64,000 nucleotides of DNA, from the NCBI RefSeq assembly GCF_013364215.1, contig NZ_CP054923.1, positions 310,001 to 374,000 of the forward strand, in the 5' to 3' direction. This document shows positions 1-30,338 of this stretch, in pieces; the stretch's first letter is position 1, and each line of letters starts with the position of its first letter. The DNA is from Verrucosispora sp. NA02020 (lineage in GTDB: Bacteria; Actinomycetota; Actinomycetes; Mycobacteriales; Micromonosporaceae). The position numbers and the translations under genes were made by a program. Under the pieces are notes generated by a model. It had not been told where the DNA came from and made no database searches. It saw nothing but the letters and a program-made list of their open reading frames with translations.

Positions 1-1
1 G

Positions 2-661
2 ACCGACGACCCGTGGACCAGCAGCCGCACCTTCGCGGCGCTGCTGGCCAGCGTCCTCATCGGTGCCGGTGCGGCGGCGTTCCGGGCCTACTTCCAGCTC
101 CGGCAACGGATCGAACAGGAGGAGAGCCTGGCCGCCGGATACGTCGGCGACGACCGGTCCTTCTATCTGAACACCATGGACCTGGTCGACCTGGCGGTCC
201 TCGTGGCGGTCGTCATCGCCACGGCGGGCCTGCTGGTCACGCTGGTGGAGGGCATCGTCTCCCGCCGCCGGGCGTACGCCGCGCTGGTGGCCACCGGGGT
301 GCCCCGGACCACCATCGGCACCTCGATCCTGGTCCAGGTGCTCGCGCCGGTGGTGCCCGCCGTGCTGCTCACGGTCGGCGTCGGGTACGCGATCGGGCGG
401 CTGTTCACCGGCGACGTGGTCAGCGGCGGCTACACCCAGGAGGTGTGCCGGGCGCGCGCGGAACTGTGTGACGACCCGGCCACCCGCCCGCTGCACGTCG
501 AACTCGTGCCGGTCGAGAGCGTGGTCCGCACGCCGGACGTACCCCTGGAGCAGCTCGCGCTGGTCGGCGGCGGTGCGCTGCTCGCGGTGCTGGTCACGGT
601 CGGGCTGGGGCTGCTGTTCCTGCGGGCCAACACCGCGATGGAGGAACTACGAACCACCTGA
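2..661 (+). CDS. FtsX-like ABC transporter permease, C-terminal part
   Basis: The frame is open from the left edge, so the start lies outside the window. What remains is the C-terminal part of an integral membrane permease of the FtsX/MacB type. It shows a membrane segment near residues 10-25, another in the stretch LAVLVAVVIATAGLLVTLVE followed by the basic motif SRRRAYAALVATGVPR, and two more near the end. The segment after the second helix, where the protein talks about ranking 'ATGVPRTTIGTSIL', is typical of FtsX C-terminal domains. Such proteins work with an ABC ATPase in lipid, lipoprotein or peptide export or in cell-envelope signalling; the ATPase is not in the window. The gene ends at a TGA directly before a strong bidirectional hairpin. 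Substrate unknown. Confidence 0.75.
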   Translation, partial: TDDPWTSSRTFAALLASVLIGAGAAAFRAYFQLRQRIEQEESLAAGYVGDDRSFYLNTMDLVDLAVLVAVVIATAGLLVTLVEGIVSRRRAYAALVATGVPRTTIGTSILVQVLAPVVPAVLLTVGVGYAIGRLFTGDVVSGGYTQEVCRARAELCDDPATRPLHVELVPVESVVRTPDVPLEQLALVGGGALLAVLVTVGLGLLFLRANTAMEELRTT

Positions 662-673
662 GACGGCGTCCGC

Positions 674-705
674 CATGGCCCAGGGCAGGCGCGCCCTGGG
701 CCATG
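674..705. terminator. bidirectional hairpin terminator
   Basis: A perfect 13-bp inverted repeat (catggcccagggc / gccctgggccatg) has a 6-nt loop. It lies between the convergent ends of the permease gene and the oligopeptidase gene. No U-tract follows, as is usual in high-GC actinobacteria. Confidence 0.75.
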
Positions 706-733
706 AGCGGCCGGTGGCCGGATGACGGGACGG

Positions 734-2830
734 TCAGGCGCGGCCGAGTCGGTCCAGGGTCCAGGCGTTGACGAACGCCTCCTCCCGCCAGGCGTCGTAG
801 CGACCGCTGGGCCCGCCGTGGCCCGCCTCCATCTCGGTCTTGAGCAGGTATTCGCCCTGCGGCGCGACGGCCCGCAGCCGGGCGATCCACTTCGCCGGCT
901 CGTGATAGAGCACCCGGGTGTCGTTGAGGCTGGTCATCGCCAGGATCGCGGGGTAGTCGCGGTCGGCCACGTTCTCGTACGGGGTGTACGACTTCATGTA
1001 GGCGTACACCTCCGGGTCGGCGAGCGGGTTGCCCCACTCCTCCCACTCGGTGACGGTCAACGGCAGCGACGGGTCGAGGATCGTGCTGAGCGCGTCCACG
1101 AACGGCACCTGCGCGACGATGGCGGTGAACGCGTCCGGCGCCAGGTTGGCCACCGCGCCCATCAGCAGCCCGCCAGCCGATCCGCCCCGGGCGAGCAGCC
1201 GGTCCGACGACGTCCAGCCCGCCTTGGCCAGGTGCCGGGCGCAGGCGACGAAATCGGTGAAGGTGTTCTTCTTGGCCAGCAGTTTGCCGTGTTCGTACCA
1301 GCTCCGGCCCAGCTCGCCGCCGCCCCGGATGTGGGCCACCGCGAAGATCACTCCACGGTCCAGCAGGGACAGCCGGCCGACCGAGAACCAGGGGTCCATG
1401 CTGGCCTCGTACGAGCCGTACCCGTAGATCACGCAGGGTGCGGAGCCGTCGCGGGGGGTGTCCCGGCGGCAGACCAGCGAGATCGGCACCTTGGTGCCGT
1501 CGTCGGCCAGCGCCCAGTCCCGGTGCTGCTCGTAGTCCTCTGGGCGGTACTCCCGCCCGTCCGGTCCGGGCAGCACCGGTCGCCGCCGCAGCAGCGTCAT
1601 CTCGCGGGTCACCAGGTCGTAGTCGTACACCGAGTCCGGGGTGACCAGCGAGGTGTAGCGCAGGCGTACCCGCCCGGTGCGGTACTCCGGGTTCGAGTCC
1701 AGCCCGACCGTGTGCAGCAGCTCCGGGAACGCGATGTCGTGCCCGTCGCCGCCGCCGACCGGCAGCACCCGCAACCCGGTGAGCCCGTTGGCGCGCAGCG
1801 TCACGACCAGGTGGTCGGCGAAGGCGTCGACGGCCTCCAGCCGGGTGCCGGGGGAGTGCGCGATCAGCGGCACCCAGTCGCCCGGGGCGTCGGCCGAGGT
1901 GTACGCCAGCGCGAAGTCCTCCGCGCCGTCGTTGTGCAGGATCAGGAACCGGTGCCCGTGGTGTTCCACCGAGTACTCGACGCCCTGCCGGCGGGGGGCG
2001 ATCACGGCCGGCTCGCCGGTGGGGTTGCCGGCCGGGATGACGCGTACCTCGCTGGTGAGCTTGCTGGCGATGTCGATCAGGATGAAGCGCTCCGAGCGGG
2101 TCAGCTCGACCCCGACCCAGAACCGCTCGTCGTCCTCGGAGTGCACCACCACGTCGTCGGCGGCGGCCGTACCGAGCACGTGCCGCCAGACCCGGTGCGG
2201 ACGCCAGGCGTCGTCCACCGTCACGTAGAACAGCACCGAGGCGTCGGCGGCCCAGGCGGTGCCGTAGAAGGTGTCCGGGATCTCGTCGGGCAGCAGCTCG
2301 CCGGTGGTGAGGTCCTTGATCCGGAGGGTGAAGCGTTCCTTGCCGGAGAAGTCGGTCGAGTACGCCAGGAAGCGGCCGTCCGGGCTGACGTCGAAGGCGC
2401 CCAGCGAGAAGAAGTCGTGGCCCTCGGCGAGCAGGTTGCCGTCGAGCAGCACCTCCTCGCCCTCCAGCGGGGCACCGGCAGGGCTGATCGGCGGCGTGGT
2501 CTCGCCGTCACGGACCGCCCGACGGCAGTGCACGCCGTACTGCTTGCCCTCGACCGTCCGGGAGTAGTACCAGTGCCCGCCCTTGCGGGTCGGCACCGAC
2601 AGGTCGGTCTCCTGGGTGCGCCGACGGATCTCCTCGAACAGTTCCGTGCGCAGGTCGGCGAGGTGCGCCGTACGTGATTCGGTCCAGGCGTTCTCGGCCT
2701 TGAGGTAGCCGATCGTCTCAGGGTCGTCCTTGGTGGCCAGCCAGGCGTACTCGTCGACGACGACGTCGCCGTGGTGGACGCGTTCGCTCGGCACCTGCCT
2801 GGCTACGGGTACGGGGGTCTCGGTGGTCAC
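734..2830 (-). CDS. ptrB: oligopeptidase B-type S9 serine peptidase
   Basis: This 698-aa protein has the layout of the prolyl oligopeptidase family: an N-terminal seven-bladed propeller (about residues 70-410) that gates access, and a C-terminal alpha/beta-hydrolase domain. The nucleophile motif GGSAGG places Ser551. Asp637 in SLNDTRV and His671 in EAGHGG complete the triad. The conserved block CVIYGYGSYEASMDPWFS lies before the nucleophile. The length and the EEWGNP motif fit oligopeptidase B, which cleaves short peptides after basic residues in the cytoplasm. The GTG start at 2830 gives VTTETPVPVARQVPSERVHHG, a normal beginning for the family. It is divergent from the FAD oxidase gene and shares an 82-bp control region with it. 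Confidence 0.92.
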   Translation of the reverse strand: MTTETPVPVARQVPSERVHHGDVVVDEYAWLATKDDPETIGYLKAENAWTESRTAHLADLRTELFEEIRRRTQETDLSVPTRKGGHWYYSRTVEGKQYGVHCRRAVRDGETTPPISPAGAPLEGEEVLLDGNLLAEGHDFFSLGAFDVSPDGRFLAYSTDFSGKERFTLRIKDLTTGELLPDEIPDTFYGTAWAADASVLFYVTVDDAWRPHRVWRHVLGTAAADDVVVHSEDDERFWVGVELTRSERFILIDIASKLTSEVRVIPAGNPTGEPAVIAPRRQGVEYSVEHHGHRFLILHNDGAEDFALAYTSADAPGDWVPLIAHSPGTRLEAVDAFADHLVVTLRANGLTGLRVLPVGGGDGHDIAFPELLHTVGLDSNPEYRTGRVRLRYTSLVTPDSVYDYDLVTREMTLLRRRPVLPGPDGREYRPEDYEQHRDWALADDGTKVPISLVCRRDTPRDGSAPCVIYGYGSYEASMDPWFSVGRLSLLDRGVIFAVAHIRGGGELGRSWYEHGKLLAKKNTFTDFVACARHLAKAGWTSSDRLLARGGSAGGLLMGAVANLAPDAFTAIVAQVPFVDALSTILDPSLPLTVTEWEEWGNPLADPEVYAYMKSYTPYENVADRDYPAILAMTSLNDTRVLYHEPAKWIARLRAVAPQGEYLLKTEMEAGHGGPSGRYDAWREEAFVNAWTLDRLGRA

Positions 2831-2887
2831 GGCGCCACGTTACCGGCAGGCCGGGCGTCTCGGGCGGCGCAAATGCCCACTTCGTCG

Positions 2888-2904
2888 TTCGAACACATGT
2901 ACGA
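2888..2904 (+). promoter_or_regulatory. LexA (SOS) box-like site
   Basis: The sequence TTCGAACACATGTACGA closely matches the actinobacterial LexA consensus TCGAAC-N4-GTTCGA, with one mismatch in the right half-site (GTACG instead of GTTCG). It ends 8 nt before the ATG of the flavin oxidase gene. This is where a leaderless or short-leader SOS promoter would be blocked. Assignment is by motif only. Confidence 0.45.
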
Positions 2905-2912
2905 TCGCTGCC

Positions 2913-4256
2913 ATGGTGCCAGCGCGTTCCACCGGCGGGTCCGGTGCCCTCGACATCGCCCGTCGCCTTACCGACATCTGCGGCTCCCGCTTCGCCCGGT
3001 TCGCCGGCCCGGCCGACGAGGTGGCCGGGCGAGCGGCCCGCTGGGTCGCGGTGCCCGGCGGCGCCCACGCGGCGGCGGAGGTGCTGCGGCTCGCCGCGCG
3101 GCACGACCTGACGGTGGTGGCGCGCGGCGCCGGCACCAAGATCGATTGGGGTGCCGTGCCGGAACGGGTCGACATCATGCTCGACACCGGTCGGCTCGCC
3201 GGCATCGGTCACCAGCCGTCCGAGCGGGGCACCGCCGAGGTCGGTGCCGGCACGCCACTGCGCGCGGTGCAGGCCAGCCTGGAACGCACCGGTCAACGGC
3301 TCGCGCTCGACGCGCCCTCGCCCGGCGCCACGGTCGGCGGGGTGCTCGCCGCGGACGAGGCCGGTCCACTGCGCCACCGGCACGGCACCGCCTGCGACCA
3401 GCTCGTCGGCCTGCGCTACCTGGCCGCCGACGGTGACCTGGCCGAGGCCGGTGGCGGGGCTGCCGGGCTGGCCCAGGCCCGGCTGCTGTGCGGGTCGGAG
3501 GGCGCGCTCGGCGTGCTGGTCAGCGCCACCCTGCGGGTGCAGCCCCTGCCGGCCAGCCGGGTCTGGGTGACCCGCCCGGTGTGGACGCCGCTGGAGGTGC
3601 ACGACCTGGTCCGGGCGGTGCTCGCCGCCCGGCTCGACCCGGCTGCCATCGAGGTGGACCTGCCGGCCGGCACGGGACCCCGGCCGAGGGACCGCCGGGC
3701 CGAGTCGATGGCGCGCCATCCGTCCATGACGGGGCGCCCGTCGACCGGCCCGGCGGGGGCCGGCTCGCTGGTGGTGCTGCTCGAAGGCGGGCCGTCCGAC
3801 GTGGCGGAGCGCGCCGACCGGCTCCGGTCGATGCTCGGCTCCCGGGCCGTCGTCGCCCGATCGGCACCGTCCTGGTGGCGCAGCTACCCGTTCGCCCCCG
3901 GTGACACCGCGCTCCGGCTGGAGGTGCCGATCAGTGACCTGCACGCCGCCGTCTACGCGCTGCGGGACGCGGCCGGCTCGCCGGTGCCGGTCCGTGGCTC
4001 CGCCGGTCTCGGCGTGGTGCACGCCGCACTGCCCGGCACGATGGCACCCGACCGGGTGGCGTCGATCCTGGTCGCGGTGCGCGGCGTGCTGCTCGCCCGA
4101 CAGGGGCGTTGCCTGGTGCTCTCCGCGCCGCCCGCCGTCCGGCGAGCCGTCGACCTGTGGGGCGAGCTGACCGGCGTGGCCCGGATGCGCGCCGTCAAGC
4201 AGCACCTCGACCCGGGTCACCGGCTGGCCCCAGGTCGCCTCCCCGGCGGCCTCTGA
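2913..4256 (+). CDS. FAD-binding oxidase, GlcE-like
   Basis: The 447-aa protein has a PCMH-type FAD-binding fold in its first half. Landmarks are VAVPGGAHAAAEVLRLAA, the pyrophosphate loop VVARGAGTKIDWG, and LALDAPSPGATVGGVLA, followed by a C-terminal FAD-linked oxidase domain. The order and spacing match the GlcE subunit of glycolate oxidase and other D-2-hydroxyacid oxidases. No GlcD or GlcF partner is adjacent, so it may act alone or with a distant partner, and the substrate is open. The ATG at 2913 was chosen because the family-like sequence begins just after it, and the upstream in-frame sequence overlaps the divergent gene. The LexA-like site just upstream suggests possible induction by DNA damage. 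Confidence 0.75.
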   Translation: MVPARSTGGSGALDIARRLTDICGSRFARFAGPADEVAGRAARWVAVPGGAHAAAEVLRLAARHDLTVVARGAGTKIDWGAVPERVDIMLDTGRLAGIGHQPSERGTAEVGAGTPLRAVQASLERTGQRLALDAPSPGATVGGVLAADEAGPLRHRHGTACDQLVGLRYLAADGDLAEAGGGAAGLAQARLLCGSEGALGVLVSATLRVQPLPASRVWVTRPVWTPLEVHDLVRAVLAARLDPAAIEVDLPAGTGPRPRDRRAESMARHPSMTGRPSTGPAGAGSLVVLLEGGPSDVAERADRLRSMLGSRAVVARSAPSWWRSYPFAPGDTALRLEVPISDLHAAVYALRDAAGSPVPVRGSAGLGVVHAALPGTMAPDRVASILVAVRGVLLARQGRCLVLSAPPAVRRAVDLWGELTGVARMRAVKQHLDPGHRLAPGRLPGGL

Positions 4257-4273
4257 GCCACGCCGGCCGTGGC
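4257..4273. terminator. short GC-rich hairpin between convergent genes
   Basis: The palindrome gccacg-ccggc-cgtggc begins right at the stop codon of the oxidase gene. It lies in the 56-bp space before the end of the convergent phosphatase gene. The stem is only 6 bp, so its role as a terminator is tentative. Confidence 0.4.
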
Positions 4274-4312
4274 GCTGCGCAGCCCTGGGGAGACGAAGCG
4301 CAGCTCCGTCGG

Positions 4313-6472
4313 TCAGACCGCGTCGTTGCGCAGGACCAGGATGGCGATGTCGTCCCGGGGTGCCTCGACCGAGAAGTTGATCGCGGTGGCGCGCAGCCGG
4401 GCCGCCACCACGTCCGCCGAGTAGCCGGCGAGCGGCCCGGCGGCGTCCCGGAGCCGACCGGTGCCGAACAGTTCCCGGCCCCGGCGTCGCTCGGTCACGC
4501 CGTCGGTGTAGAAGACCAGGCAGTCGCCGGGATCGAGGGCGATGTCCAGGGTCGGCGAGGTGATCGTGTCGAGCAGGCCGAGCGCGGTGCCGCCGGTGCC
4601 GACGAACGCGGCCGGGCCACCGGACGCGCGCACCAGCACCGGCCGGTCGTGGCCGGCCAGGTGCAGCCCCACGTCGAGTTGCCCGTTCTCACCCTGCCCG
4701 ACCGCCGCCAGCGCCAACGTGCAGTACCGTCCGGCACCCCGCTCGACGAGCGTCTCGTTGAGCCGGGACAGCACCTCGGGCAGCGGCTTGCCGTCCCCGG
4801 CCAGCACCCGGATCACGTCCCGGACCAGCCCGGTGACCGCAGCGGCCTGCACCCCCTTGCCGGAGACGTCGCCGATCACCACCAGCCAACGGCCGTCCGG
4901 CATCGGCACCACGTCGTAGAAGTCGCCGCCGACCTCGGCGTCGTCGCCGGTCGGCACGTACTCGGCGGCGAAGCCGATGCCCTCCACCACCGGAAGCACC
5001 GGTGGCAGCAGCGACTGCTGCAACGTCTGTGCCACCCGCCGACGCTCGGCGTGGATGCGGGCGTTCTCGATCGCCAGGGCGGCACGCCGGGCCACGTCCT
5101 CCAGCACCGCGATCTCGTCGGGATCGTGCCGGTGCCGCTGATGCCGGCCGACGGCCAGTGTGCCGAGGCGCTGACCTCGGGCGATCAGCGGCACGGCGAA
5201 GCCCTCCATCGGCGCGCCCAACGGCGTCTGGGTGCCGTTGCGACTCGCCTCGCGCAGCCGGGCCTGGACCGAGTCCGGTCCCGCCTCGCGCAGCGTCGCG
5301 TGCAGATGCGGCAGCATCGACTCGTCGGCGTGACTGGCCGCGGCCAGCTTGAGTCGACCCCACTCGTCGGTGGTGTGCACGGCACACCACTGACCGAGCC
5401 GGGGCACCACGAGCTGCGGGACGAGCGCCATCGTCAGCTCCACGTCCAGGGACTGGGCGAGCAGCTCGCTGGCCTCGGCGAGGAAGGTCAACCAGGCCTG
5501 TCGCCGGACGTCGGCGCGGCGCAGCCGGTCGTTCTCCAGGTGCAGCGACAGCCGCTCGGCGGTCAGCAGGGCCAACGGCCGGGCGTACGCGGTGGGGGCG
5601 GCGTCGAGTTCCAGCTCACCGGCGTACGGGCGGTGCACCGCCAGCGGCACCCGGAGCAGGTCGTTGCCGGGGCGGGGCTGTCGGCCGTACCGGGCGAGGA
5701 CCTGTGGGCCGTGCCCGTCGCCCCGGTCCAGGCGCACCACCCCGCCGGCCGCGCCGACCATCTCCGCCACCCGGGTGAGCAGGCTGGTGGCGAAGTCCGG
5801 CAGCGGATCGTCCGCGTACGGGTCGGGGGTGGGCTGCATCAGGGCGCTCATCGCCCCGGCGCTCGGCACCGAGGAGTGGCCGCCGTCCGAACGGCCGATC
5901 GGCGGGGCGAAGTCGTCCGGGCGTCCGGGCTGCGGCCCGTCGCGCTCCAACCGGAACCACACGCCCTTGCCGCTGGGCAGGTAGGTGGTGCCCCAACGGC
6001 TCGCGAAGTGGTCGACCAGCAGCAGGCCGCGCCCGCGCTCGGCGACCTCGGTGATGTCGGTCTCCACGTTCCGCACGCCGACGGTCAGCTCGTCGACCGG
6101 CCCGGAGGCGAAGTCCGACACGGTCACGGTCAGCCCGGTCGAGTCGGCGCTGACCTCGATGTCGAGTTCGGTGCGGGCGTGCTCGACCGCGTTGGTGGAG
6201 AGCTCCGTGGTGAGCAGGAGCGCCTCGTTGAGAAGTTCGTCCAGGTTCGCCTCGGCAAGTACGGACCGGACGACGGCTCGCGCGGCGGCCGGCGTACGCC
6301 GATCGGCGGGCAGCCGGACCCGCCGGACGTGCTCCTCCGGGCCCCCGTCCGTCGTTGGCCCCACCGCCGCTGACACTCTCGTATCCTGCCCCGGCACCCG
6401 GCCCGTGCCAAGCCGATCACGGGTCGGGTCCGGAATACGGACGGCGGTGCGCCGTGGCGGTTTCGAGGTCAC
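4313..6472 (-). CDS. HATPase-GAF-PP2C (SpoIIE-type) regulator
   Basis: This 719-aa cytoplasmic regulator joins three modules. Residues about 45-165 form an RsbW-like anti-sigma kinase/ATPase, with N-box ELSTNAVEHA and G-box ERGRGLLLVDHF. Residues about 210-445 hold GAF-like sensor sequence ending in the helix ARRAALAIENARIHAERRRVA. Residues about 450-719 form a SpoIIE/RsbU phosphatase domain with GGDFYDVVPMPDGRW, VIGDVSGKG and FYTDGVTERR. The acidic metal-binding residues of PP2C are in place. Such proteins control anti-anti-sigma factors in partner-switching circuits. The GTG at 6472 (VTSKPPRRTAV) was chosen since longer versions would run into the divergent gene. The divergent neighbour is a HAMP-repeat sensor remnant, probably once part of the same signalling unit. 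Confidence 0.85.
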   Translation of the reverse strand: MTSKPPRRTAVRIPDPTRDRLGTGRVPGQDTRVSAAVGPTTDGGPEEHVRRVRLPADRRTPAAARAVVRSVLAEANLDELLNEALLLTTELSTNAVEHARTELDIEVSADSTGLTVTVSDFASGPVDELTVGVRNVETDITEVAERGRGLLLVDHFASRWGTTYLPSGKGVWFRLERDGPQPGRPDDFAPPIGRSDGGHSSVPSAGAMSALMQPTPDPYADDPLPDFATSLLTRVAEMVGAAGGVVRLDRGDGHGPQVLARYGRQPRPGNDLLRVPLAVHRPYAGELELDAAPTAYARPLALLTAERLSLHLENDRLRRADVRRQAWLTFLAEASELLAQSLDVELTMALVPQLVVPRLGQWCAVHTTDEWGRLKLAAASHADESMLPHLHATLREAGPDSVQARLREASRNGTQTPLGAPMEGFAVPLIARGQRLGTLAVGRHQRHRHDPDEIAVLEDVARRAALAIENARIHAERRRVAQTLQQSLLPPVLPVVEGIGFAAEYVPTGDDAEVGGDFYDVVPMPDGRWLVVIGDVSGKGVQAAAVTGLVRDVIRVLAGDGKPLPEVLSRLNETLVERGAGRYCTLALAAVGQGENGQLDVGLHLAGHDRPVLVRASGGPAAFVGTGGTALGLLDTITSPTLDIALDPGDCLVFYTDGVTERRRGRELFGTGRLRDAAGPLAGYSADVVAARLRATAINFSVEAPRDDIAILVLRNDAV

Positions 6473-6532
6473 GGGGACAATGATGGGGTGGCCGGCGCGA
6501 GCCGGTGTACCCCGATGCGAGTGCGAGGAATG

Positions 6533-7132
6533 ATGACCACGGCGAAACAGTCGGCGATCGCGGACACCTCCGCCGCCGACCACGAGGCGGTCCTCACCGA
6601 GCTGGCCGAGGCGCTGCGGCGGGTCCGCGGAGGCGATCTGAAGGTCAGGCTGCCCCGGCGTTCGGGCGCGGCCGGTGAGGTGGCCGACGCCTTCAACGAC
6701 GTGGTGTCGCTCCAGGAGCGGCAGCATCTGGACCTGCGCCGGATCAGCCGCGTCGTGGGTCGCGACGGTCGGCTGACCGAACGCCTGGACGAGGAGGGGC
6801 TGGACGGCTCCTGGGCGGAGGGGCAGCGCGCGGTCAACTCGTTGATCGACGACCTGGGTCGGCCCACCACCGAGATCGCCCGGGTCATCGTGGCCGTCGC
6901 CGACGGCGACCTCTCCCAGCACATGGCGCTGGAGATCGACGGTCGCCCGCTGCGCGGCGAGTACCTGCGCATCGGCCGCACGGTCAACACCATGGTCGAC
7001 CAGCTCTCGTCCTTCTCCAACGAGGTGACCCGGGTGGCCCGGGAGGTGGGCACCGAGGGCAAGCTCGGCGGTCAATGCCGCTCAGTTAGGGCGGTGGGCG
7101 GGTTGTCAATGCTGCTGTTTCGAGGATGTTGA
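6533..7132 (+). pseudogene. HAMP-repeat sensor kinase, truncated by IS insertion
   Basis: The first 180 residues or so match the N-terminus of the large soluble actinobacterial histidine kinases built from serial HAMP domains. Visible repeats include VRGGDLKVRLPRRSGAAGEV, VIVAVADGDLSQHM and RTVNTMVDQLSSFSNEVTRV. The family normally runs to more than 1,000 residues, with many more HAMP units and then GAF, kinase and receiver domains. Here the frame meets the left end of the IS element at 7073, right after the motif GTEGKLGGQ. It then reads about 18 element-derived residues to a stop at 7132. The rest of the gene is not found on the far side of the element. A good ribosome-binding site (gcgagg) precedes the ATG. 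The remnant has no catalytic part and is presumably non-functional as a kinase. Confidence 0.85.
7073..7096 (+). repeat. left terminal inverted repeat of the IS element
   Basis: This 24-bp end is identical to the reverse complement of 8542-8565. It contains the transposase stop codon (TAA on the minus strand at 7086-7088). Confidence 0.9.
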
Positions 7133-8447: not shown

Positions 8448-8541
8448 CGGCGGGGCTCCCGGTCCAGAGGCTGTCTTGGAGTGACAAACCTCTATACCGA
8501 GACCCCGCCGTCCACGTCTACACCCCGCTTGACATCCACCA

Positions 8542-26151: not shown

Positions 26152-26205
26152 GTTAGGAAGGGGCCCTTCCTCTACACCAGGCGTTAATAAGGTGCCCTTC
26201 CTTAC
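26152..26205. repeat. AAGGAAGGG palindromic element, copy 3 (partly coding)
   Basis: The left arm is gttaggaaggggcccttcc and the right arm is AATAAGGTGCCCTTCCTTAC, around tctacaccaggcgtt. Read on the minus strand it encodes the last 17 residues and the stop of the adenylosuccinate-synthetase-like gene. Confidence 0.85.
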
Positions 26206-27562
26206 GAACGTGCTTCTCGGCAGAGGTGGGTCCGTGCGAGGTGAGGAGCACCGGAGCGCCGAGCGCCTCGCCGATCATCTCGGGCCAGTTTGCCGGACCG
26301 GCGTCGTAGAGCGGGCGTGCCCGCAGCAGGCGGGCGGTGAGCGCGGCCTGCCGGTCGAGGTCGCCGGCCGGGCCCGGGAGCAGCCGGTCCAGGCCGTCGT
26401 AGCGGCGGCAGATGCGCAGGTCGAGATCACGTTCGGTGAGATCCAGGTGGGTCAGCGCCAGGCCGTCCACCCCGCCCGCGACCGCCAGGGCGTACGCGTG
26501 CGCGACGGCGTCGAAGTGACCGAACCGGAAGCGGCCCTGCCAGGGGTTCGTCGCGTTGTGCGGGTCGGTCAGCGGCAGCGACGGGTCCTCGGTGACCAGC
26601 GGTCCTGGACCGTGCCGGGTGGTGACGGTCCGCAGCACCCCGATCCGCAGCGCCGATCCGCCCTGCCCGGCCTCGGCCAGCAGAGTCTCGGCGTTGGCGA
26701 AGGTGGTGGTGCTCCACGTGGTGTACGGGTGGAAGCCGTGCCACTCGTCCAGCAGCACCCCCTGGGCGCCCTCGAACACGCACGGCCCGGCCCGTAGCGC
26801 CCCGGCCAGCCAGGAGCCGTCGACGATCGCCACCCGTTCGGCGAAGGCCCGGTACGCCGGCAGGCAGTCCGCGACCGGTGGGGCATCCAGCGGCCCGAGT
26901 TCGGCGGTGAGCCGGTCCCGGAGTGCGGTCAACCGTCGGCGCAGCACCTCCGGGTCGCGGCAGTCGGCGACCCGGGGTGCCTCGTCGGGGTGGGCGAGCC
27001 CGTACGCGACAGTCTCGCCCACCCCCTGCCCGCAGGAACCGTGCCGGTCGGCTCCCCGGGCTGTCTCCCGGGCCCGGTTGGCGGCCCGGTGGTACGGGGT
27101 GGCCAGCAGCGCCGCCCCGTCCACGGTCAACCGGTCGAACGCGTCGGGCACCCCGACGGCGGCGAGGTGGTCGGCCTCGGCGGCGAGCGCCAGCGGGTCC
27201 ACCACGACGTGCCGGGACAGGTGGGTGCGTACGCCGGGGTGGAAGGTGCCGGCACCGAACTGCGCGAAGGTGTGGTGTCGGCCGTCGGGCCGGACGACGT
27301 TGTGCGCCGCCTGCGCACCCCCGTTGAACCGGACCACGGTGTGCACCGGCCGGGTGGCGCAGAGCCAGTCCACGACCGTGCCCTTGCCGGCGTCGCCGTA
27401 CCCGAGGTCGACCACGATCGCGTGCTCCGGACCCGGCCCGCCGGCCGAGCCCCCGGTGAACCGGCCCGCCGGACCATCCGCCGGCCCGCTGGCCAACCCG
27501 CCTGCCGGGCCGCGCCCGGGTGCCGGGACACCCGGGCGCGTGACGGTCATCGGCTCGTTCAC
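26153..27562 (-). CDS. divergent adenylosuccinate synthetase paralogue
   Basis: The 469-aa protein keeps the PurA framework after a Pro/Gly-rich N-terminal stretch of about 45 residues. It has a P-loop with GYGDAGKGTVVDWL (canonical GDEGKGK), VVRFNGGAQAAHNVV (GGxNAGHT, catalytic His kept at 87) and FEGAQGVLLDEWHG. Key loops differ. The IMP-phosphate loop TTGRGIGPAYEDK is replaced by HGSCGQGVGETVAYG, and the aspartate loop TTGRRRR by PWQGRFR. These changes suggest an altered nucleotide or amine substrate. The last 17 residues come from palindromic repeat copy 3. The GTG start overlaps the VWA stop by 4 nt (GTGA). It is the last gene of a four-gene operon with VWA, J-domain pseudokinase and NrtR-like proteins. 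Confidence 0.8.
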   Translation of the reverse strand: MNEPMTVTRPGVPAPGRGPAGGLASGPADGPAGRFTGGSAGGPGPEHAIVVDLGYGDAGKGTVVDWLCATRPVHTVVRFNGGAQAAHNVVRPDGRHHTFAQFGAGTFHPGVRTHLSRHVVVDPLALAAEADHLAAVGVPDAFDRLTVDGAALLATPYHRAANRARETARGADRHGSCGQGVGETVAYGLAHPDEAPRVADCRDPEVLRRRLTALRDRLTAELGPLDAPPVADCLPAYRAFAERVAIVDGSWLAGALRAGPCVFEGAQGVLLDEWHGFHPYTTWSTTTFANAETLLAEAGQGGSALRIGVLRTVTTRHGPGPLVTEDPSLPLTDPHNATNPWQGRFRFGHFDAVAHAYALAVAGGVDGLALTHLDLTERDLDLRICRRYDGLDRLLPGPAGDLDRQAALTARLLRARPLYDAGPANWPEMIGEALGAPVLLTSHGPTSAEKHVRKEGHLINAWCRGRAPS

Positions 27563-28518
27563 AGCCGGACGACCCCGCCGCCGGTGGTGCGGGTGGCCGG
27601 CAGCTCGGCCACCTCGGCGCGGCGCGCGCCGTTCAGCCGGGCCAGCGCCTTCGACACCGTGCGGGTGGCCGTCGAGCCGGTCCGGTCCAGGTCCCGCAGG
27701 CCGGTGTCGAGGTCGATGGCCTGCTCGCCGAGGCCGACGGTGAGCGCGATCGTCTCGCAGACCGCGTCGAGGTCGTCCAGCTCCAGGGCGTTCTGGCCGA
27801 GCAGGCCGCGCCAGAAGTCGAGCACCTTGCGGTTGCCCGAGTAGTGGCTGCCGGCCGGGAGCAGGTAGTACGTGTCCCAGCGGCGGGTCACCTCGTCGAC
27901 GATCTGCCGCACCGGCACGTCCTCGCGCGGGTCGTCGCCGATCAGGCGGGCCACCTCGGCGGCCTTGACCGACGGGTACGCCAGCTCGTCGCCGATGATG
28001 AAGAGGTAGCCGCGTCGGCCCCGCTTCTCCCAGCTGTCGGTGACCGTCCGTCGGGCCATGTAGTAGAGCGCCAGTTCGTAGGACTCCATCATCTGGCCGC
28101 CACCGCCGCCCTCCAGCACGATCCGCCCGAGGTCCTCGTCCATCCGGTTGTCGGACTCGAACTGGCCGATCTGCAACGGCACCCGGTCGCAGGTGGCGTC
28201 GCCGATCGCGCCGAACATGATCTGCGGGTCGCGGGCGTACCCCTGGCGCAGCAGCAGTCCCAGCAGTTGCGGCAGCTTGGCCTGGAGGGTGCGGGGCACG
28301 TGCCCCATCGAGCCGGTCACGTCGAACAGCACCGTGACCGGGGTCGACCGCGGGTGCTCGGCCGAGTCACGGCTCTCCCGCGTCGCGCCACGGGGGTCCA
28401 GTTGCGGGTGCACCACCTTGGCTCCGCTGTCGCTGTACGAGAACGCGCTCTTGCCGGTGGCCCGGCGGTACCGGTCGGCGGCGGTGTACACGTCGGTGGA
28501 CCACATTCCGCTGCCCAT
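27559..28518 (-). CDS. VWA-domain protein with MIDAS motif
   Basis: The 319-aa protein has a von Willebrand A-like fold. The metal-ion-dependent adhesion site begins at residue 66 (DVTGSMG), preceded by the hydrophobic strand VTVLFD, and a second acidic strand is FIIGDELAYPS. No signal peptide is seen, so it acts in the cytoplasm. Such VWA proteins usually form metal-bridged complexes with an ATPase, kinase or enzyme. Here the likely partners are the J-domain pseudokinase encoded 10 nt upstream and the synthetase paralogue with which it overlaps. The start follows AAGGAGGCTGCC. Function unproven. Confidence 0.75.
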   Translation of the reverse strand: MGSGMWSTDVYTAADRYRRATGKSAFSYSDSGAKVVHPQLDPRGATRESRDSAEHPRSTPVTVLFDVTGSMGHVPRTLQAKLPQLLGLLLRQGYARDPQIMFGAIGDATCDRVPLQIGQFESDNRMDEDLGRIVLEGGGGGQMMESYELALYYMARRTVTDSWEKRGRRGYLFIIGDELAYPSVKAAEVARLIGDDPREDVPVRQIVDEVTRRWDTYYLLPAGSHYSGNRKVLDFWRGLLGQNALELDDLDAVCETIALTVGLGEQAIDLDTGLRDLDRTGSTATRTVSKALARLNGARRAEVAELPATRTTGGGVVRL

Positions 28519-28528
28519 GGCAGCCTCC

Positions 28529-29503
28529 TTAGGGGGTGAGGGTGAAGGGTCGGAAGGTGCGCGGCCCGTAGAGCCGGTGCAGCACCTCGTCGAGTTCGCC
28601 GAGCAGTCGCCAGGCGTCGTCGGGGCGGCCCGACAGCGATCGCTGTCGGCAGCCCGCCGCGAAGGCGAGCAGCTCGTGCGGGGCCCGGTGCCCCATCAGC
28701 CAGGTCATGCACCGGGTGGCCATGTCGATGTCGGTGCCCGGCCCGCAGGGGCGACGCCCGGTGACCTCGGCCGGGTACCACTCCTGGTGGTCCGGGACCA
28801 GCGCGGGCACGACGCCGCCGGGCTCGGTGGCGAAGCACCAGTCGACCAGCACCACGCCGTGCGCGTCCGGCTCGATCAGCACGTGGGGCGGCAGCACCGC
28901 GCCGTGCACGACGCCGGCCCGGTGGGCCAGGCCGAGCGCCACCAGCAGCCGTCGCCACATCCAGGCCACGTCGCGGGCGTCCAACCCGTCCGGGTACGCC
29001 TGCCGCACGTCGACCAGGCTGCGCAGGCCGGGTGCGGTGGCGAGGACGGTGACCTGGCGTTCCGCCCCGGTGGCGGGGTCCCGGTGCGCGAACGTGTCGA
29101 CCAGCCGGGGCACGTACGGCAGCCAGCGGGGGTCGCCGTGGTCGGCGAGTCGGCGCAACGCGCGCTGCTCACGGATCATCAGGTCGTTGTCGCCGACCTC
29201 GCGGGGCAGTTTGAGCAGCCGGTCCCCGCCGACGTCGTAGAGGTCGGCGAGGTCACCCGAGTACGCCGGTGCGCCGCAGTGGTAGCCGCGCAGGACGGTG
29301 ACCCGGCGGGCGCGCCAGCGGGTGGTGACCCGGACGAACGCCTCGGTGGCCTCGGCGCGTACGCCCGGGGCGGTCCGGTCCAGCCGGTCGGGGTGCAGGG
29401 CGGTGACCAGTTCCCGGTAGCGGCGTTCCGGTGCGTCGGCGCCGAACAGGTCGTGGTCGTCGCGGGCAGCGGTGACCAGGCGGATCGCCTCGTCGGTCCT
29501 CAT
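28529..29503 (-). CDS. J-domain-like / pseudokinase fusion protein
   Basis: The 324-aa protein starts with a short DnaJ-like segment (about residues 1-60) containing HPD at 37-39 in YRELVTALHPDRLD. The remainder has a protein-kinase-like fold with Lys98 in RLLKLP, a helix-C Glu (IREQRALRRL) and a hinge region. The catalytic loop HRDLKPxN reads HGAVLPPHV and DFG reads DWC. The catalytic Asp and Asn are thus missing, while the metal Asp is kept. It is therefore probably a pseudokinase or an atypical nucleotide-binding protein. The ATG overlaps the stop of the Nudix gene (ATGA), and the VWA gene follows after 10 nt, so it is a core part of this operon. Confidence 0.65.
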   Translation of the reverse strand: MRTDEAIRLVTAARDDHDLFGADAPERRYRELVTALHPDRLDRTAPGVRAEATEAFVRVTTRWRARRVTVLRGYHCGAPAYSGDLADLYDVGGDRLLKLPREVGDNDLMIREQRALRRLADHGDPRWLPYVPRLVDTFAHRDPATGAERQVTVLATAPGLRSLVDVRQAYPDGLDARDVAWMWRRLLVALGLAHRAGVVHGAVLPPHVLIEPDAHGVVLVDWCFATEPGGVVPALVPDHQEWYPAEVTGRRPCGPGTDIDMATRCMTWLMGHRAPHELLAFAAGCRQRSLSGRPDDAWRLLGELDEVLHRLYGPRTFRPFTLTP

Positions 29504-30252
29504 CGCACCGTCTCCTCCCGGGCGGGCCGCAGCAGCGCCGGGTGCAGCAGCCGGGCGTCGCCGGCCCGGTAGAGGCGGGCACGCGGGCCGCCCCGGCTGC
29601 CGCCGCGTTCGGTGTTGGCGCCGGTGCTCTCCACGAAGCCGGGCACGGAGAGCACCTTGCGGTGGAAGTTGCCGGCGTGCAGCGGGTGGCCCCAGACCGT
29701 CTCGTAGACGGTGCGCAGCTCGCCGATGGTGAACTCGGGCGCGAGGAAGCGGGTGGCCAGCGGCGTGTACTCCAGCTTGGAGCGGGCCCGCTCCAGCCCG
29801 TCGTCGACGATCCGGCGGTGGTCGAAGGCGAGTTCCCGGCCGGGCAGCTCGGCGACCGGCACCCAGCCGGCCTCGTCGGCGTCGGTGCCGGCGGTGGCGT
29901 CCGGCAGGTCGGGGGCGAAGGCGAGGTGGGCGATGGAGACGACCCGCATCCGCGGGTCGCGCTCGGGCGCGCCGTAGCTCGCGAGCTGCTCCATGTGGAC
30001 GCGACGCAGCCGCTCCCCGCCGAGCCCGGTCTCCTCGGCCAGCTCCCGCCGGGCGGCGGTGGCCGGGTCCTCGTCCGGGCGGACGAAGCCGCCGGGCAGC
30101 GCCCAGTGTCCGGCGTACGGCGGCTCGGCGCGGCGGATCAGCAGCAGGTGCAGCGCGTCGTCCCGGATGGTCAGCGCGACCACGTCGGCGGTGACCGCCA
30201 CGGCCGGGTAGGCCCGTGGGTCGTAGGAGGCGAGGAAGTCCTGCTCGTTCAC
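29500..30252 (-). CDS. NrtR-like Nudix regulator
   Basis: The 250-aa protein has an N-terminal Nudix domain (residues about 15-145) with a complete Nudix box, G-x5-E-x7-REL-x-EE-x-GL, seen from GGFVRPDEDPA. A C-terminal winged helix follows (FTIGELRTVYETVWGHPLHA, NFHRKVLSVPGF). This two-domain form is that of NrtR, a repressor responding to ADP-ribose or related nucleotides, often in NAD metabolism. The intact Nudix box leaves hydrolase activity possible. As the first gene of the operon it probably regulates its own unit. Direct repeats TGAGAACA lie just upstream. The GTG at 30252 was chosen, and a TTG two codons earlier is equally possible. Confidence 0.75.
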   Translation of the reverse strand: MNEQDFLASYDPRAYPAVAVTADVVALTIRDDALHLLLIRRAEPPYAGHWALPGGFVRPDEDPATAARRELAEETGLGGERLRRVHMEQLASYGAPERDPRMRVVSIAHLAFAPDLPDATAGTDADEAGWVPVAELPGRELAFDHRRIVDDGLERARSKLEYTPLATRFLAPEFTIGELRTVYETVWGHPLHAGNFHRKVLSVPGFVESTGANTERGGSRGGPRARLYRAGDARLLHPALLRPAREETVR

Positions 30253-30270
30253 GCTCAATCACTCTCACTC

Positions 30271-30294
30271 TGAGAACATCTCTATGTGAGAACA
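30271..30294. promoter_or_regulatory. direct repeats upstream of the NrtR-like operon
   Basis: TGAGAACA occurs at 30271-30278 and 30287-30294, 16 bp apart (centre to centre), in a small AT-richer patch before the operon start. Spacing on about one and a half helical turns suggests a protein-binding site, possibly for the NrtR-like protein itself. Confidence 0.4.
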
Positions 30295-30338
30295 ACTTAG
30301 CGCGAAAAGGAGGGCCGGGCAAGTGCCCGACCCTCACC

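Follow-up and report, generated by a model that had tools for sequence, protein, structure and literature searches.

Soil bacteria, plasmids and large phages have a four-gene operon with a PurA-like protein in common

The stretch of DNA analysed here (the window) comprises 64,000 nucleotides of Verrucosispora sp. NA02020 (contig NZ_CP054923.1, positions 310,001 to 374,000) and carries, on its minus strand at 26153-30252, an operon of four genes. These encode a regulator with a Nudix domain and a winged helix (Nudix-wHTH), a putative J-domain pseudokinase (JK), a VWA protein and a PurA-like protein, in that order. A sequence-only reading of the window had singled out the operon and proposed that it makes or consumes a modified purine nucleotide. 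The operon is real and is not limited to one strain. Its genes and putative control elements are as follows.

29500..30252, minus strand: Nudix domain and NrtR-type winged-helix regulator (PF00293, PF21906; start from relatives)
28529..29503, minus strand: JK, predicted J domain (HPD, residues 37-39) and pseudokinase, 324 amino acids (phrog_3043, AlphaFold2, Foldseek, motif counts)
27559..28518, minus strand: VWA protein, metal site DxTxS (residues 66-70) and D177, 319 amino acids (phrog_2971, AlphaFold2, Foldseek, residue counts)
26153..27562, minus strand: PurA-like putative ligase, 469 amino acids (PF00709, phrog_1211, residue map, tree)
30264..30274, minus strand: putative operator half 2 (CTCAGAGTGAG; upstream comparison)
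30280..30290, minus strand: putative operator half 1 (CTCACATAGAG), 16 bp from half 2 (upstream comparison)
30294..30299, minus strand: -10-like box (TAAGTT), 9 bp ahead of operator half 1 (upstream comparison, sequence reading)

Operon layout and regulator

The close coupling of the four genes that had been described is confirmed. The JK start overlaps the Nudix-wHTH stop by ATGA (29500-29503), 10 nt (28519-28528) separate JK from the VWA gene, and the PurA-like start overlaps the VWA stop by GTGA (27559-27562). The open frame of the Nudix-wHTH gene reaches TTG at 30258; GTG at 30252, with which the end coordinate of the earlier reading agrees, is preferred as the likelier start because many relatives keep GTG/ATG-AACGAGCAG there. 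Residues 1-46 of the PurA-like protein form an extension ahead of the matched domain. All four proteins match PHROG families (phrog_1198 for Nudix-wHTH, phrog_3043 for JK, phrog_2971 for VWA and phrog_1211 for PurA-like), a first sign of carriage by phages.

The regulator firmly matches PF00293 (E 1.5e-23, 83.7 bits) and PF21906 (E 2.9e-11, 43.8 bits), both above cut-off, and like the NrtR repressors it places a Nudix domain ahead of an NrtR-type winged helix. However, it reaches 132.8 bits where the cut-off of the NCBIfam NrtR equivalog is 400, and it has an operator of its own, a tandem of CTCAN4GAG sites. The strict Nudix-box pattern is matched in 46 of 79 sequences. When the regions upstream of the Nudix gene are compared between the window and 79 relatives, which are related and thus not independent, CTCAN4GAG occurs in 75 of the 80 (150 sites, against 2.2 in dinucleotide shuffles, largest 5) and forms a tandem pair in 56. 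When the motif is relaxed, 87 of 92 pairs of successive sites have a spacing of 16 bp, and a TAnGTT -10-like box begins 9 bp ahead of the first site in 44 of the 75 operator-bearing regions.

Of 61 genomes, 24 have the exact double site. Each has it once, except the window's genome, which has it twice because the region is duplicated; both sites precede copies of the operon. A VWA gene lies 1.5-2.8 kb from the site in 22 of these 24 genomes. The exceptions, both without VWA, are one genome (G009) with a Nudix gene behind the double site and another (G039) that also matched the reversed control pattern, which gave one match in all. Four of the 26 genomes with VWA have no exact double site. The window's genome has the exact double site before no other gene, weaker sites elsewhere not having been looked for. 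The low score against the NrtR equivalog, together with an exact double operator found only before this operon, makes the protein look like a private regulator. Thus the Nudix-wHTH protein seems to serve this operon, and from the place of the sites we infer that it represses it; the earlier suggestion that it works as an NrtR-type sensor of ADP-ribose is not supported. A second Nudix-wHTH-like match, 59% identical, is found elsewhere in the same genome (contig C1:128237-128926), where a search for VWA and PF00709, though not for JK, gave no match.

Two further observations concern the surrounding DNA. At 26153-26215 the end of the PurA-like gene enters a GGAAGGGGCCCTTCC palindrome, with a further AAGGTGCCCTTCCTT; such palindromes are presumably of a kind repeated in Micromonosporaceae. 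The window also spans the junction (near 7073) of a direct duplication of ~149 kb. Positions 7073-64000 equal C1:167679-224666 at 100% apart from a single repeat unit (~60 bases, near 8506); positions 1-7074 recur at C1:459614-466687, also at 100%, with an offset ~280 bases larger. This may be either a real tandem duplication or an assembly artefact.

Distribution in chromosomes, plasmids and phages

Relatives of the VWA protein were sought among 5.8 billion proteins, the 7997 candidates sharing most words being scored; 5699 of these are relatives at E <= 1e-3. The named entries among 120 listed relatives are called only 'hypothetical' or 'VWA domain-containing'. The best 80 of at least 405 genomic loci by VWA similarity, one genome per species, were sorted into 27 genus labels, and their genes were called with models from three alignments and the window's Nudix protein. 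The order Nudix-JK-VWA-PurA is found in 70 of the 80, of which 69 are intact and one (L087) has a split PurA-like frame. Six loci lack JK alone, with the Nudix gene abutting VWA. In two there is no Nudix gene within 4 kb, one being cut by a contig end and the other having a Nudix gene ~4.4 kb off. One locus (L088) has Nudix and VWA alone, and one (L107) has no PurA because the contig ends. Since these loci are the nearest VWA relatives and all actinobacterial, the figure of 70 does not describe more distant relatives; within this set, the recurrence of the four-gene order is more than chance. The operon is therefore conserved, as had been expected, and no fifth gene is conserved with it: neighbour families around the 80 loci occur in at most 6 of the 27 genus labels, the most frequent of them being in part spurious frames.

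Within the genus the operon behaves as one block. VWA is present in 23 of 36 relatives, and the 13 without a VWA match were examined. In 8 of these 13 the distance between the flanking MaoC and SCP2 genes is 1.0-1.6 kb, against 5.5-5.9 kb in five genomes with the operon, the window's included; in 3 of the 13 the gap is 4.1-4.3 kb, and in 2 the flanks are on separate contigs. Where the operon is missing, a VTT gene follows MaoC (2 of the 8 short and the 3 middle-gap loci inspected). The flank distances and content show that the unit comes and goes as one block at this locus. The three middle-gap loci without the operon (L255, L256 and L257) were read as holding a two-component pair together with another VTT-type gene.

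The unit is also found on plasmids, with VWA in 21 records. In the records opened, Tsukamurella and Rhodococcus plasmids have the order JK-VWA-PurA-Nudix, and Agrobacterium vitis and Acetobacter plasmids have JK-VWA-PurA with Nudix divergent. Searches with the Acetobacter proteins lead again to these phage and plasmid carriers, with 207 records from the phage groups described below and 13 from plasmids. On a Variovorax plasmid (L008:4762-5964) the kinase-like protein starts with a CPxC...CxxC zinc-ribbon-like stretch that replaces the J domain. Occurrence at large was sampled in two ways, by an alignment search of a phylum sample (2 of 396 genomes) and by a single-protein search of a class sample (43 of 394, two matches being weak and partial, E 1e-4 and 6e-4); since neither search considered more than 5 candidates per genome and the two results disagree, neither is taken as prevalence.

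Among 50,697 phage records, VWA occurs in 206, JK in 190 and PurA-like in 224, and mycobacteriophages account for 189, 190 and 190 of these, respectively. The mycobacteriophage Mangeria (Bixzunavirus) has JK-VWA-small gene-PurA near its genome end, and VWA together with PurA-like also occurs in phages of Rhizobium and Vibrio. In the literature, an adenylosuccinate synthase homologue of Bxz1 is noted without function in one source and listed in another, and published tables of Vi01-like phages give an adenylosuccinate synthase and a VWA gene separately. Among the best 80 of at least 437 IMG/VR contigs for PurA-like (some being near-copies, with flanks of up to 6 kb on each side), VWA lies near PurA-like on 75 and JK on 48; four of the five contigs without VWA have less than 900 bases to the contig end. 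The loci without JK and the phages with only VWA and PurA-like mark JK as a dispensable part. The four-gene unit is thus common to soil bacteria, plasmids and large phages, a spread that the sequence-only reading missed.

In a tree of 90 rows, whose bootstrap is not settled and in which the PurZ row forms a very long branch, 86 PurA-like rows stand apart from three canonical PurA and one PurZ (support 99/99). The 16 actinobacterial rows are nested within a mostly viral PurA-like tree, as one group with a support of only 77/91; the smallest starred set that holds all 16 adds three viral rows (99/91). This nesting, the patchy presence of the block and its carriage by plasmids and phages would suit an anti-phage defence module that phages captured as a counter-defence or as a weapon against other phages. 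A defence role, which overlaps with the explanation preferred below, is possible, but on balance it is doubtful: PADLOC gives nothing for VWA and PurA-like, a Nudix match of E 3.1e-8 and weak kinase matches for JK (4.3e-6 or weaker), and the unit has no recognised toxic effector and no recurrent fifth gene.

The neighbours of the viral copies bear on another explanation, in which the enzyme's substrate would be the purine of NAD or ADP-ribose, or of a compound derived from them, that the Nudix protein senses. It draws on the NrtR-type regulator and, weakly, on some viral copies lying near nicotinamide phosphoribosyltransferase (NAMPT), NUDIX and NADAR genes. However, a scan of 300 viral neighbour proteins, with family lists comprising the first 25 families, gives NAMPT 4, NUDIX 4 and NADAR at least 1, with no control for their frequency in large phages. 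When the neighbours are clustered, the largest cluster (12 loci) is spurious antisense and the next, NAMPT included, have at most 4 loci. Four viral loci (L114, L115, L116 and L136) have NUDIX-type genes close to VWA and PurA-like, some with NAMPT-type genes as well. The Nudix/WYL-HTH and vWA systems of ADP-ribose conflict offer a parallel, as they likewise join a Nudix-HTH regulator to a vWA protein, proposed to be a Mg-dependent peptide-binding chaperone; a term search of that paper's text did not find adenylosuccinate, PurA or DnaJ (PMC9503650). Against this explanation also stand the exact double operator, found before no other genes, and the incomplete match to the strict Nudix box. It overlaps with the preferred explanation, and we regard it as tentative, less probable than not.

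The PurA-like enzyme

The PurA-like protein belongs to the superfamily of adenylosuccinate synthetase (PurA, EC 6.3.4.4), firmly matching PF00709 (E 5.2e-60) and also phrog_1211 (E 2.1e-77), yet it falls far below the NCBIfam cut-offs for purA (TIGR00184, 118.2 vs 395.55; NF002223, 154.2 vs 402) and for PurZ (NF038379, 35.3 vs 300). In addition to the PurA-like gene (203.8 bits), a canonical purA is found in the genome of the window (C1:166398-167648, 608.6 bits), and both are present in 20 of 20 other genomes chosen for their VWA match, where the PurA-like match adjoins VWA on its contig. The presence of canonical purA in all 20 identifies the PurA-like protein as a paralogue, as had been predicted; it is not the sole PurA of its host, and its co-occurrence with the other three genes is wide.

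Residues were compared in an alignment of 166 PurA-like proteins (80 actinobacterial, 3 proteobacterial and 83 viral) and 22 canonical PurA. The P-loop GDxGKG is kept in PurA-like, as are D13 (165 of 166), K16 (165), H41 (166), Q224 (165), T239 (162) and D333 (164); in PurA, H41 has a role in catalysis. By contrast, positions for inosine monophosphate (IMP) and aspartate are replaced, which bears out the description of the protein as an altered synthetase: N38Q in 165, T129C in 148, V273H in 165, T301Q in 160, T300 by Trp, Phe or Tyr in 156, and R303 absent in all 166. The canonical residue remains in 1 sequence at N38, 8 at T129, 4 at R143 and none at V273, T300, T301 or R303, whereas canonical PurA keep N38, T129, R143, V273, T301 and R303 in 22 of 22 and T300 in 21. 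T42 and K331 are likewise found in all 22 canonical sequences but in only 34 and 0, respectively, of the 166, where K331 is His or Cys in 159. A count of C-terminal GTP motifs (135 of 166 PurA-like against 0 of 21 canonical) is uninformative, its control having failed.

The contacts described for the Helicobacter pylori enzyme give these positions a meaning. In that enzyme, IMP is held by Arg135 of the neighbouring subunit, Asn37, Gly119, Thr121, Thr230, Val264 and Arg294, and GDP by Asp12-Gly16, Thr41, Lys322, Asp324 and Ser400-402, the aspartate loop being 289-294 (PMC11276676). Mapped by order and motif, as the H. pylori protein lies outside the alignment, five of the seven IMP contacts and the aspartate loop appear altered. 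On the GDP side the P-loop and the Asp appear kept and the Thr and Lys lost, the Ser stretch being unmapped, which suggests that the phosphoryl-transfer part is kept and that the donor may not be GTP. Phosphoryl-transfer residues kept alongside replaced IMP and aspartate positions argue for a ligase with new partners. That R143 and T129 are lost would suit a purine without a free 5' phosphate.

If the protein were an ordinary adenylosuccinate synthetase, the second of its genome and held as a back-up or stress copy, this would account for the PF00709 match and for the shared D13, K16, H41, Q224 and T239. It does not account for the scores below both purA cut-offs, the replacements just listed or the separation of the PurA-like clade in the tree, and it is improbable. 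A PurZ-like enzyme making 2-aminoadenine or another DNA precursor can be weighed in the same way. As in the Z-genome phages with PurZ or PurZ0, a branch of the PurA superfamily is borne by large phages, in some near replication or nucleotide genes, and '2-aminooxy adenylosuccinate synthetase' is the product name of some phage PurA-like proteins, of phrog_1211 and of the phiVC8 gene. The PurA-like protein differs from PurZ and PurZ0 in that it keeps D13, travels with VWA and often with JK, and is chromosomal as well. In a survey, D13 is found in 99% of the PurA group and is Ser in 147 of 147 phage PurZ, the phiVC8 gene counts as PurZ, and 365 of 767 sequences fall, by subtraction, in neither group (PMC12884076). 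The phiVC8 protein also has Ser at this position here. As a PurZ gene has the same product name, the name looks carried over to the PurA-like branch. With the low PurZ score and the copies on bacterial chromosomes, a PurZ-like role appears about as remote as that of an ordinary PurA, and on residues and model scores both were put low. By these residues and scores the PurA-like protein is best placed as neither PurA nor PurZ but as a third branch of the adenylosuccinate-synthetase superfamily.

Partner proteins and proposed activity

Neither JK nor VWA has a Pfam match above cut-off. The AlphaFold2 model of VWA (mean pLDDT 93.0) finds integrin I/VWA domains with Foldseek (TM-score 0.6 by target length), and the protein matches phrog_2971 (E 2.9e-72). 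Its metal site agrees with the VWA protein that had been recognised, with D66, S70 and D177 in 67 of 67 rows, T68 in 66 and E145 in 67. The JK model (mean pLDDT 95.9) finds kinase structures, and the first match is a DnaJ-PKA chimera (4wb7) at an rmsd of 26.7, which shows that the J and kinase domains are arranged differently in JK. JK matches phrog_3043, named 'kinase' (E 2.1e-46), but reaches 11.8 bits against the cut-off of 27.8 for the J domain PF00226; a J domain is suggested by the HPD motif and the chimera match. His, Pro and Asp of this motif are present in 29, 28 and 28 of 29 actinobacterial and in 32, 31 and 32 of 35 viral rows. The catalytic Asp position is Ala in all 29 actinobacterial and in 26 of 35 viral rows (Asp in two), while the Lys-Glu pair is kept in 29 of 29 and the DFG Asp in 28 of 29 actinobacterial rows, viral rows being looser. 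JK thus has the residues expected of a pseudokinase with an HPD motif, as first described. Stress modules of the TerY type also pair a vWA protein with a kinase-like partner; the kinase here differs in having no catalytic Asp and in having a J domain, and no Ter gene was looked for. Distances between VWA proteins track those between PurA-like proteins (Mantel r 0.82 across 67 viral and 0.74 across 77 actinobacterial loci, where permutations reach at most 0.16 and 0.12, respectively).

The module is conserved, co-inherited and common to phages and plasmids, and has its own operator. Its enzyme is most likely a purine ligase that depends on an NTP, has a new amine as partner substrate and works together with VWA. 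Drawing on a nucleoside triphosphate (GTP if D333 acts as it does in PurA), the PurA-like enzyme would phosphorylate a purine at its 6-oxo group and would then join an amine other than aspartate to the activated purine. The purine would not be free IMP, its 5' phosphate probably being part of something larger, for instance a dinucleotide, a nucleotide-sugar or a nucleic acid. VWA would be the constant partner of the enzyme, a docking or specificity subunit acting through its metal site. JK, missing from some copies, would be an ATP-binding, non-phosphorylating scaffold that brings DnaK through its HPD motif. The Nudix-wHTH protein would bind the tandem operator beside the promoter until a nucleotide ligand permits expression. 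The chances are about even that the operon is such a self-contained module on the third branch, with a purine ligase that takes a non-IMP substrate and a non-aspartate amine and has VWA as its partner. The sequence-only interpretation is partly supported: the operon, the paralogy, the changed active site and the nature of the partner proteins stand, the ADP-ribose sensing is not supported, and the nucleotide product, the chaperone-like assembly and a role in stress or defence are conjectural.

Several points weigh against this explanation. D13 and H41 by themselves are no proof of catalysis, and the changed GDP contacts T42 and K331 make GTP uncertain as donor. An Arg aligned at 306 is kept in 165 of the 166 PurA-like proteins, so the rebuilding of the aspartate loop could have left its substrate unchanged; the Arg-rich loop is one residue shorter, a single Arg replacing several, with the position of the gap being the aligner's choice. 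The 166 sequences are related and include near-copies, and the 80 genomic loci are the best of a larger set by VWA similarity, actinobacterial throughout. Where present, JK fits VWA and PurA-like at least as well (0.78-0.81) as these fit each other, so co-inheritance does not single out VWA and is partly a consequence of adjacency. Single CTCAN4GAG sites number 3 in the window against 7.95 expected, which is not above chance, and only the tandem and its conservation count.

No named system was found for the four-gene assembly and no paper on it in the open-access literature, to which this absence is limited; its enzyme adds a new branch to a superfamily already known. The PurA or PurZ names of PurA-like partners in the phage and plasmid records seen are contradicted by their residues. 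If the proposed activity is true, the reaction on purines would be a new one, carried out by an enzyme derived from PurA in which the amine and nucleotide site has been rebuilt. A bolder form, which we hold only tentatively and consider rather unlikely as a whole, is that this third catalytic branch activates the 6-oxo group of a purine in a larger molecule (an NAD- or ADP-ribose-like dinucleotide, RNA or DNA) and joins a non-aspartate amine to it, run by the VWA/J-pseudokinase assembly, as a new nucleotide chemistry exchanged by large phages and actinobacteria, probably in conflict. As large phages, plasmids and chromosomes all carry it, the module is a candidate for a part in phage-host conflict.

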